Shown here piece by piece: positions 694 through 25,480 of a stretch of 64,000 nt of DNA (positions are counted from its first letter, which is position 1; every line of letters begins with the position of its first letter). The DNA lies in contig NZ_LDCP01000001.1 in NCBI RefSeq assembly GCF_001021555.1, positions 124,001-188,000 on the forward strand, given 5' to 3'. The position numbers were made by a program, and so were the translations under genes. Under the pieces are notes generated by a model. It was given only the letters and a program-made list of their open reading frames with translations, ran no database searches and was not told the DNA's origin. The DNA is from Aurantiacibacter marinus (GTDB lineage: Bacteria; Pseudomonadota; Alphaproteobacteria; Sphingomonadales; Sphingomonadaceae).

Positions 694-1464
694 TCAGGGC
701 GTGCTCAGGCTGAGCTCGCCGCGCATACCCAGCACGCCTTCGCCATACAGGTAGGTCGAATCGAATGTGGCATATTTTTCCAGCCGCTTGCGATCCGGCA
801 CATCGATCCGGCCACGGCGGAAATCGGCCAGCCCCTCTTCCCGCAGCTGGCTCAGCGCGCGGTTCATGTGGATGGCTGTGGTGCCGCACATTTCGGCCAG
901 ATCCTGCTGGATCAGCGGCGTATCAATGCCCCCGTCACGCCCCAGCCCGACGAAATCAAGACGCTGCCAGATTTCGCAGAACACATGCGCCACGCGTTTC
1001 GGCGCGCGCAGCTGTTCCAGTTTCATGATCCATTCGCGGTGAATGGCCGCGTCCAGCAGGGTGGAAAACCATAGCAAACGGGCAAGATGCGGGTTGTCCG
1101 ACATCACGTCCTTGATCCGGTCATGTGTGGTGAACCCGACTTTGGCCTTGCCGATCGTCACCAGATTATGGTCCAGCCGTTTCAGCGCAAAGGCGTGAAG
1201 GTCAACGAAGTCTCCGGGCACCTGAACCCCGACAACATAGCGCTTTTCGCCCGAATTGATTGTTCGCAGGACAAATCCTTCGATGAGCATGGTGGAGCGA
1301 TTGCACAGGACTCCGCGCTCCAGAATAACTTCGGGCGACTCAAATTCGGCGGTTTCCTCGACCAGCGATTCAACCGTCGCTTTCTCCTCTTCGCTCATCG
1401 CATCGCGAAGCCGCCCTTCGAGAAACCTTCCCGTCTTCGGATAAAGATCAAGTTCGTCCGCCAT
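694..1464 (-). CDS. Crp/Fnr-family transcriptional regulator
   Basis: 256 residues from ATG 1464, which follows an AGGGA-like ribosome site; a longer frame to 1530 lacks a good start. The N-terminal half looks like a cyclic-nucleotide-binding-type sensor barrel (VILERGVLCNRSTMLIEGFV, VGVQVPGDFVDLHAF). The C-terminal part carries a winged helix (LIQQDLAEMCGTTAIHMNRA, LREEGLADFRRG). The N-terminal cysteine cluster of true oxygen-sensing FNR is absent, so the signal is unknown. The gene is transcribed away from the 5-oxoprolinase operon starting at 1594, which makes it a candidate regulator of that operon; this is inference. It has the form of the abundant sphingomonad Crp/Fnr-like regulators. 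Confidence 0.85.
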   Translation of the reverse strand: MADELDLYPKTGRFLEGRLRDAMSEEEKATVESLVEETAEFESPEVILERGVLCNRSTMLIEGFVLRTINSGEKRYVVGVQVPGDFVDLHAFALKRLDHNLVTIGKAKVGFTTHDRIKDVMSDNPHLARLLWFSTLLDAAIHREWIMKLEQLRAPKRVAHVFCEIWQRLDFVGLGRDGGIDTPLIQQDLAEMCGTTAIHMNRALSQLREEGLADFRRGRIDVPDRKRLEKYATFDSTYLYGEGVLGMRGELSLSTP

Positions 1465-23754: not shown

Positions 23755-24543
23755 CTATTGCTCCACAAGTGCGAAATCGACCTGCACAGTGACCGCACTG
23801 GTCGTTTGTCCGGGCATGATGGTGGCGGACACTCCTGCTTGCTCTTCCGGCGCAATAGCAAGATTGACAGGCGGCGGCGGTGCCACTGGCGGCGGCGGAG
23901 TGCGGCTATAGCTGGCTGCGTCCACCGCCGTGGCTTGCGCGCCGGAGAAGTAGCGGCCACCTTGCGATCCGCCTGCATCGCGAATGTACAGCACACGGCT
24001 GACTTCCATTCCCGCTGCCTGGGCGTAGGCTTCTGCGCGGGCTAGTGCTGCGGCATAGGCGTTGGAATAGGCGGTGTTGGCGGCAGCTTCCGGATCGGAA
24101 AGGCGCAGTTCCGGGCCGGACACGATATTTGCGCCCACGCCGGTTACCGCAGTTACCGCAGCGCCCGCCTTTTCGATATCGCGCACCCTTACAGTCAGCG
24201 TGTTGAACGCCTGGAATTGGCCCCGCCGGTCGCCCCAATCGATGCGCTGGACATTGACTGCGCTGGTCTGGATATCTTCTTCAGCCACGCCCAGTTCGCG
24301 TAAAGCAGCGACAATTGCGTCGATATCCTGCTGCGTTTCGGCAGAGGCATCGGCGGCATTGCGCGCCCAATTCTGCACACCTGCCTGAAAACGCGCCTCG
24401 TCGGGGCGCATGTCAGCCTGCCCGGTTGCGCTGACCGAAAGCAGCGTCTCGCTCTTCTCGACGCCGCGCGGATCGTAAACCGTATCTCCGCAGGCCGTTA
24501 ATGACAGCGCGCACAGGGCAAGTGAAAAGTTACGATAATTCAT
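23755..24543 (-). CDS. SIMPL-domain (DUF541) lipoprotein
   Basis: 262 residues. The signal peptide ends in LTAC, a good lipobox, so the protein is likely a lipoprotein. The body is a SIMPL/DUF541 domain: SVSATGQADMRPDEARFQAG, then an alpha-beta repeat and VSGPELRLSDPEAAANTAYS, ending with a proline-rich stretch (TPPPPVAPPPP) and a last beta segment. The family is linked to outer-membrane stress and oxidative defence, but its biochemistry is not settled. It starts at ATG 24543, directly after a perfect hairpin holding its ribosome site, and an FNR-type box lies about 60 bp upstream. Regulation is thus the interesting part. Confidence 0.9.
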   Translation of the reverse strand: MNYRNFSLALCALSLTACGDTVYDPRGVEKSETLLSVSATGQADMRPDEARFQAGVQNWARNAADASAETQQDIDAIVAALRELGVAEEDIQTSAVNVQRIDWGDRRGQFQAFNTLTVRVRDIEKAGAAVTAVTGVGANIVSGPELRLSDPEAAANTAYSNAYAAALARAEAYAQAAGMEVSRVLYIRDAGGSQGGRYFSGAQATAVDAASYSRTPPPPVAPPPPVNLAIAPEEQAGVSATIMPGQTTSAVTVQVDFALVEQ

Positions 24544-24545
24544 AG

Positions 24546-24584
24546 CGATGCTCCTAATGTAATAATATCACATTAGGAGCATCG
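24546..24584 (-). promoter_or_regulatory. Perfect 15-bp inverted repeat hiding the SIMPL ribosome site
   Basis: The arms cgatgctcctaatgt (24546-24560) and its exact complement (24570-24584) are separated by nine AT-rich bases. On the minus strand the 3' arm contains AGGAG (24555-24551), seven bases before ATG 24543, so in RNA the ribosome site would be fully base-paired. It could be an RNA thermometer or other translational switch, or as DNA an operator for a dimeric repressor. There is no T-run, so it is not a terminator. Confidence 0.75.
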
Positions 24585-24601
24585 AGGTTACACTATGTCA
24601 A

Positions 24602-24615
24602 TTGATGTATATCAA
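24602..24615. promoter_or_regulatory. Perfect FNR/FixK-type box (TTGAT-N4-ATCAA)
   Basis: The 14-mer ttgatgtatatcaa matches the FNR/FixK consensus in all ten specified positions. It lies between the SIMPL gene start (24543) and the stop of the methyltransferase gene (24671), both on the minus strand, so SIMPL is the only possible target. A TTGACA (24601-24596, minus strand) abuts it. No FNR with its cysteine cluster is in this window; the Crp/Fnr protein at 694-1464 lacks it. Confidence 0.6.
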
Positions 24616-24632
24616 CCTGACAGCGCTTATCT

Positions 24633-24656
24633 GCGCTGCCCAGATCGGGGCAGCGC
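24633..24656 (-). terminator. Hairpin downstream of the secreted methyltransferase gene
   Basis: A nine-pair stem gcgctgccc/gggcagcgc with a six-base loop lies 15 bp after the stop at 24671. There is no clear T-run on the minus strand, so it may be an RNA-stabilising hairpin rather than a full intrinsic terminator. Confidence 0.4.
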
Positions 24657-24670
24657 CAGATATGCCGATG

Positions 24671-25480
24671 TCAGTCCCGCTTGCGGAACAGCAAAGTCAT
24701 GCGGTCGGTTTCGCCAATGGCTTCATAGCGGGCGCGGTCCTGGTCGCCGTACCGCAGTGTTGGCGGCAGGGTCCACACGCCGCCTTCCCAGTCTGCCGTG
24801 TCGCTCGGGTTGGCATTGACTTCAGACGTTTCGACAAGTTCGAAACCGTGCAGTTCGAACAGACGGATCACGTCCGACTGGCGCATGTAGCCGCGAGAGC
24901 CGCGTGCGGCTTCGTAGCTGGCATCTTCGGGGGCGCGGTGCTGGACCACGCCGACCATGCCATCATCGGCCAGCAGCGTGCGAATGGCGCGCAGCTCTGC
25001 ATCGGCGGCATTGCCGTTCATCAGGCCGTGGATGGAGCGAAACACCAATACGCGGTCCACCGTGCCTGCCACGTCGGCGGGAATTTCATCGCTTTCGAAT
25101 GCGCTGACATTGCCCATCGCAGCCATGCCGTTTTCGGTCGCTGCGGCCATGAACTGTTCGGCCCAAGTGGCTGCGCCCTCTTCACGAGCGCCAGTGTCAC
25201 GCTGCAACGCCATATATGCGCCTTGCGGAGCGACATAGGGCAGCAGCACACGGGTATACCAACCGCCGCCGGGGCCATACTCGGCCACGCGCATCGTTGG
25301 TTCTACCTGGAAGAAAGCCAGCGTTTCGGCGGGATGGCGATATTGATCGCGGGCAGCATCATCGGCGCGCGATTCCATTGCCAGAATGTCTTCGATGGAA
25401 TGATGATGCTCATGTTCATGAGCGGCGGCAGGCGCAGCCAGCACAAATGCTGCGGCGGCAAGAAGGGGGGTAATACGCAT
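24671..25480 (-). CDS. Class I SAM-methyltransferase-like protein with signal peptide
   Basis: 269 residues. A clear signal peptide (LLAAAAFVLAAPAAAHE) leads into a His-rich segment (HEHEHHH). A Rossmann-type methyltransferase core follows: MRVAEYGPGGGWYTRVLLPY (motif I), DRVLVFRSIHGLMN (motif IV region) and DDGMVGVVQHRAPED. This matches the COG4798-type predicted methyltransferases seen in many Proteobacteria. Export is puzzling because SAM is cytoplasmic, so the fold may serve another job, or the protein may bind another ligand; the His cluster could bind metal. No partner gene is obvious. Confidence 0.82.
   Translation of the reverse strand: MRITPLLAAAAFVLAAPAAAHEHEHHHSIEDILAMESRADDAARDQYRHPAETLAFFQVEPTMRVAEYGPGGGWYTRVLLPYVAPQGAYMALQRDTGAREEGAATWAEQFMAAATENGMAAMGNVSAFESDEIPADVAGTVDRVLVFRSIHGLMNGNAADAELRAIRTLLADDGMVGVVQHRAPEDASYEAARGSRGYMRQSDVIRLFELHGFELVETSEVNANPSDTADWEGGVWTLPPTLRYGDQDRARYEAIGETDRMTLLFRKRD

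Follow-up and report, generated by a model that had tools for sequence, protein, structure and literature searches.

Why should a bacterial gene carry a long, perfect hairpin directly over its own ribosome-binding site? The question is raised by a gene of Aurantiacibacter marinus that encodes a lipoprotein of the SIMPL (DUF541) family and lies in the window, i.e., the whole stretch of 64,000 nucleotides analysed here. The original prediction answered it with two layers of control, by oxygen through an FNR box and by temperature or a ligand through the hairpin. It overlooked a Zur-type box, AATGTGATATTATTACATT, at the very centre of the inverted repeat. We consider it probable that a Zur operator and promoter and a hairpin insulating the gene from read-through are built on one and the same centre, and that the hairpin is not a sensor; the promoter, the binding of Zur and the translational block are predictions read from the sequence. 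The features, in window coordinates, are the following.

23755-24543, minus strand: SIMPL (DUF541) lipoprotein gene, 262 aa, the gene that would be regulated (PF04402, E 1.5e-38, and open frame); a lipobox-like LTAC is read at the N-terminus of the protein
24541-24543, minus strand: start codon ATG, read from the sequence and kept in G016
24551-24555, minus strand: Shine-Dalgarno AGGAG within the 3' arm, read from the sequence
24546-24560, minus strand: hairpin 3' arm ACATTAGGAGCATCG (inverted repeat and fold; covariation of the equivalent arms)
24561-24569, minus strand: hairpin loop GATATTATT (sequence)
24570-24584, minus strand: hairpin 5' arm CGATGCTCCTAATGT, predicted to hide the ribosome site in the long RNA (inverted repeat, fold, covariation)
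24556-24574, no strand assigned: putative Zur-type operator AATGTGATATTATTACATT, with its core TGTNAYANTRTNACA at 24558-24572 (pattern searches, regulon context)
24564-24572, minus strand: putative extended -10 element TGT-GATATT inside the operator, with a predicted +1 at about 24557 (conserved TGTnAYAnT)
24602-24615, no strand assigned: FNR/FixK-type box TTGATATACATCAA, species-specific (sequence, orthologue comparison)
24671-25480, minus strand: upstream co-directional gene, methyltransferase-like by motifs (open frame; it adjoins SIMPL in most relatives)

On the minus strand, the order is thus TTGATATACATCAA, then CGATGCTCCTAATGT/GATATTATT/ACATTAGGAGCATCG (24584-24546), then CT and the ATG. 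The arms CGATGCTCCTAATGT and ACATTAGGAGCATCG pair at 15/15 positions and the AGGAG is followed by 7 nt before the ATG, exactly as had been described, and the identity given to the SIMPL gene is borne out by its PF04402 match. Among the perfect inverted repeats of the window, this one, of 15 bp, is the longest; the maximum in 40 dinucleotide-shuffled windows was 13 bp. Folding of the plus strand gave a z of -6.2, with 0/200 shuffles equally good, and folding of the minus strand from -62 to +12 gave a z of -6.1. The 88 bases upstream are single-copy in the genome, which rules out that the region between the genes was brought in by a repeat or mobile element. The upstream gene (24671-25480) returned no match in Pfam and NCBIfam searches. 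Between this gene and the FNR box lies a second hairpin, of 9 bp (GCGCTGCCC-N6-GGGCAGCGC, window 24633-24656), in a stretch that occurs once in the genome and is missing from close relatives.

To what extent is the hairpin kept by selection? SIMPL orthologues were gathered from the genus and from the family. In 28 of the 30 orthologues examined from one related genus, a 16-23 bp stem centred on the Zur-type core adjoins the start codon, and in these 28 orthologues the 3' arm is the ribosome site. The arm sequences differ between species (AATCCCTCC, AAAGCCCC, GCAACTCCGC, GGCCCTC, etc.) and their complementarity is kept. We quantified covariation in the arms outside the core, using a gapless alignment of 32 sequences; each row was placed with its best palindrome at the centre, a choice that favours pairing, and five rows came from other genera and were picked because the hairpin was present. 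Of the outer-arm cells, 97.2% hold standard pairs, against 68.2% after shuffling and at most 57% when the arms were slid by one, 11/11 outer-arm pairs changed on both sides, and compensatory (two-sided) cells numbered 97, against 23.9 +- 4.6 in the shuffled controls. Outside the genus, the same design with unrelated arms was found in G000, G016, G045, G087 and G179, and also in G410, where it stands farther from the start codon. Judged by this comparison, the outer arms are a real, selected hairpin, and the claim that a hairpin hides the ribosome site stands, base pairing being kept by compensatory change across many species. In two orthologues, hairpins before the ribosome site were also seen without a Zur-type core, at L008 in G021 (CTCATTTCC...GGAAATGAG) and at L009 in G019 (GGTGTCT-N6-AGACACC).

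The core at the centre of the repeat belongs to a small set of similar sites, for which the genome-wide statistics are based on pattern searches. With up to 3 mismatches allowed, the palindromic pattern AATGTNATANTATNACATT occurs 6 times in the 2.8 Mb genome and its reversed-pattern control 0 times; a related 17-mer has 24 sites in 9/10 genomes, with 0 control matches. The genes beside the box sites, confirmed by Pfam, encode MerC, TonB (twice), ExbD, a TonB-dependent receptor and a cation-efflux/zinc transporter, and in seven genomes merC shares its box with the divergent ctaA. For Zur sites of proteobacteria, the core in use is GTTA-N5-TAAC (PMC4176598), and in the proteobacterial Zur regulon, boxes of this type accompany tonB and exbD as well as genes for receptors and transporters (PMC4176598, PMC6103462). 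Our sites thus share with this regulon the type of box and its position at metal-uptake genes, and differ from it by the SIMPL target and by the hairpin arms around the box. The core at SIMPL, here GTGA-N5-TTAC, has 2 differences from the strict GTTA-N5-TAAC; the exact form stands at the same spot in the G041 and G044 orthologues, and a Zur-type core is located at nearly the same place, just before the start codon, in most SIMPL orthologues. Two FUR-family proteins are encoded in the genome. Of these, C1:506270 shows similarity to E. coli Zur (chain 4mtd, 1.4e-11); the structure chain that it matches best is 7dh7, a FUR-family regulator (3e-20), and its best NCBIfam match is Zur, but below the model cut-off. 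We take the repeat centre to be a Zur operator, with predicted binding. The passing remark of the original prediction that the repeat could be a repressor site thus receives a precise content, from the box and from its regulon context. A literature search for a link between a SIMPL-domain gene and Zur found none, the sole paper returned being unrelated.

Several variants of this layout were encountered among the relatives. At six loci of one genus (L066, L067, L070, L073, L074 and L076), TGAGACATnGTCTCA-like palindromes replace the Zur-type box at the same position, which perhaps reflects a changed repressor specificity. In a second group (L043, L057, L059, L063, L075 and L079), the Zur-type box stands 75-85 nt upstream of the start codon, and most members carry, after the box, a conserved GTTCACATTRTGGCGAAAATAAGGC-like element and also a different, GC-rich hairpin at the ribosome site. 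Zur-type boxes also precede the gene of a secreted beta-propeller-like protein in two genomes (L101, L109). At L034 (G000:C2:231972), a perfect 16-bp palindrome, TCACATTATAATGTGA, stands just before a RibB-like gene (riboflavin-synthesis enzyme-like); it resembles the Zur box but does not fit it. At L037, an msrA-like gene immediately precedes the Zur gene, and the divergent neighbour of the SIMPL cluster is a further msrA-like gene. Finally, distant SIMPL paralogues of the same group (L010-L014, L016-L023) are unlike the Zur-boxed gene, several of them having upstream a GGAAC-N17-CGTT promoter of the alphaproteobacterial general-stress (EcfG) type.

How could an operator and a hairpin share one centre? 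An extended -10 element has the form TGnTAnAnT. The left half of the core, TGTnAYAnT, has this form, and its key A and T are conserved across orthologues; from this conserved motif, we place a putative promoter inside the operator. A simple promoter scan found a promoter-like site on the opposite strand only, the -35 region being weak. The opposite-strand match arises because the core is palindromic, and a divergent transcript may start from it. The Zur operator would therefore overlap the extended -10 promoter of the SIMPL gene, so that zinc-replete Zur would block this promoter, and the promoter inside the box would fire when zinc runs short. The SIMPL mRNA made in this way would start at about 24557, at the end of the core, and would lack the 5' arm; its leader of about 15 nt would keep the ribosome site, and keep it open. 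On the contrary, a transcript arriving from the upstream gene would carry both arms, fold into a 15-22 bp stem and hide the ribosome site, so that read-through could not bypass Zur. As the ribosome site would be hidden in the read-through RNA only, the hairpin would be an insulator and not a sensor. We compared the two RNAs by the energy needed to open the ribosome site together with the start codon, a measure chosen since the pairing probability of the Shine-Dalgarno separated short from long RNA poorly. This energy is 23.8 kcal/mol in the long RNA against 6.0 in the predicted short RNA of the present species, and the means over 34 hairpin species are 21.1 and 5.4 kcal/mol, respectively; in this model, the long RNA should therefore be silent and the short one active.

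Could the arms instead matter only as DNA and play no part in RNA, forming an extended operator or a cruciform, or owing their likeness to template-switch (palindrome-correction) mutation? The stem is indeed centred exactly on the DNA operator, palindrome correction would also give near-perfect arms and rapid two-sided change, and a base gained in both arms, seen in L065 vs L071, fits it too. However, at 19 other box-like sites, pairing beyond the core is at chance (3.7/12), which excludes palindrome extension as a general property of Zur boxes. The extended arms are therefore neither part of Zur binding nor a by-product of the palindrome, and neither Zur binding nor correction of the core demands them. 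No shared sequence in the arms points to a second protein site, and the 3' arm is always the ribosome site. Moreover, the imperfections of the outer arms lean to sense-strand G-U (13 vs 3 A-C), a ratio that falls to about 10 to 3 after merging related species by hand and is suggestive only. Altogether, the chance pairing elsewhere, the drifting arms and the G-U lean favour pairing in the sense RNA, and we regard an explanation in DNA alone as unlikely.

The co-directional upstream gene would be the source of the read-through RNA, and the neighbourhood of the SIMPL gene was compared across species. Stems with z < -3 were found in 37/60 species with the methyltransferase-like gene upstream, in 2/9 with another co-directional gene and in 0/15 with neither, and a co-directional neighbour is present in all hairpin species. 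In the sister pair L055/L047, L047 has lost the upstream gene and has a divergent msrA instead; the box is kept and the hairpin is absent. In L005 and L051, the SIMPL start directly adjoins the stop codon of the upstream gene, and neither the box nor the hairpin is left. L040 and L042 have the box and a co-directional neighbour, without the extended stem. An independent-contrast test of the association between the hairpin and the upstream gene, with few independent changes on the tree to draw on, gave 2.0 for and 0.2 against, of 8 pairs, a result that is not significant. From this distribution we infer that read-through is what selects the hairpin. The same neighbourhood could also mean that SIMPL is transcribed mainly with the upstream gene, Zur acting as a roadblock and the hairpin as a constant damper or coupling element that lowers all SIMPL translation. 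The upstream stop codon is only 13-90 nt from the hairpin in most species, there is no strong -35 element and the co-directional neighbour is conserved, all of which would suit such co-transcription. But a stem with an opening cost of about 21 kcal/mol would leave almost no expression of the gene, and the species that truly couple both genes (L005, L051) are those that lost the box and the hairpin, which makes a constant damper quite improbable.

Still less probable is a regulated RNA switch (thermometer, riboswitch or small-RNA target), which the original prediction had proposed for a ribosome site hidden in what is indeed a conserved hairpin. The free energy of the isolated stem, -26.4 kcal/mol at 37 C, still amounts to -22.5 at 45 C and to -17.7 at 55 C. 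This is far too stable for an RNA thermometer, and control by temperature is unlikely. The Rfam search gave no riboswitch or RNA family match near any gathering score, only the plain stem is conserved, with no aptamer beyond it, and no conserved ligand-binding element is seen outside the Zur core; the riboswitch was rejected on these grounds, and the proposed ligand control is not supported. The free drift of the arm sequences speaks against a fixed trans-acting partner. As for an intrinsic terminator or a processing site of the upstream transcript, it is scarcely credible: a T-run follows the stem in some relatives (L053, L071, L128), but many others have none (L119, L134, L112), and a terminator scan of 24480-24720 found no T-run after the stem and no terminator-like site.

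Hairpins that would act as we propose for SIMPL, i.e., on read-through RNA, are known from mobile elements and phages. In insertion sequences of the IS10/IS50 type, a hairpin of the terminal inverted repeat hides the transposase ribosome site only in RNA entering from outside. The likeness is that a hairpin protects a gene from outside transcription; the difference is that these are mobile elements, with no regulator box at the hairpin centre. In phage T4, the operator of a repressor overlies the internal promoter of the I-TevI gene, and a hairpin covers the ribosome site only when the transcript is a long one from upstream promoters; the likeness, an operator over an internal promoter together with a hairpin confined to the long RNA, extends to I-TevII, I-TevIII and segB of T4 and to mobE of Aeh1 (PMC2988022). 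Those are phage homing endonuclease genes, with a late promoter and autorepression, whereas here we find a chromosomal lipoprotein gene, a putative zinc repressor, and operator and hairpin on one centre. In T4 gene e, a stem silences the early read-through mRNA, with an effect of about 100-fold, and the late promoters of gene e, soc and gene 49 lie in the region coding for the 5' strand, so that the mRNA they give is without the stem (PMC3014915). There too, read-through RNA is silenced by a stem and the mRNA of an internal promoter lacks the 5' arm, but the control is one of phage timing, with no metalloregulator. By analogy, the SIMPL arrangement would work like the T4 e and I-TevI design; it is not related to it by descent. 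A chromosomal bacterial promoter inside a ribosome-hiding hairpin was not found in the open papers that the search covered.

Bacterial genes lie in dense, leaky neighbourhoods, yet many have private switches, and the question of how such a switch is shielded from read-through has seldom been raised except for phages and transposons. The SIMPL locus would be a clear, many-species example of this protection, with a directly testable prediction: a 5' end inside the stem, and a silent long RNA. We see about even chances that it represents a general bacterial design, in which the operator of a metal repressor, a promoter and a ribosome-hiding hairpin lie on one centre and evolve as a unit. If true, the repressor would hold the core while the outer arms drift under pairing, and the zinc control of the gene would be immune to the transcription of its neighbour. 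The locus would show that a conserved hairpin over a ribosome site need not be a sensor. It would also make the SIMPL protein, a member of a family whose function is unclear, part of the response of these bacteria to zinc starvation.

There remains the FNR/FixK-type box. The perfect TTGAT-N4-ATCAA that had been reported is indeed found at 24615-24602; such a match is expected 0.05 times per shuffled window and occurs 10 times in the genome. Among the SIMPL orthologues examined, the one in this genome alone has the box upstream, all the others lacking it. From the centre of the box to the predicted start there are about 52 nt, the standard positions being -41.5 or -61.5. Among the proteins encoded in the genome are a cysteine-bearing FNR and a FixK-like protein whose gene lies next to cytochrome oxidase genes; of the other FNR-type sites, one adjoins this FixK-like gene and another a universal-stress-protein-like gene. 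Oxygen control of SIMPL in this species is therefore possible, because of the perfect box, of these two regulators and of the further FNR-type sites. Lastly, a gene for a CRP/FNR-family regulator (HTH_Crp_2) is located at the start of the window (772-999, minus strand).
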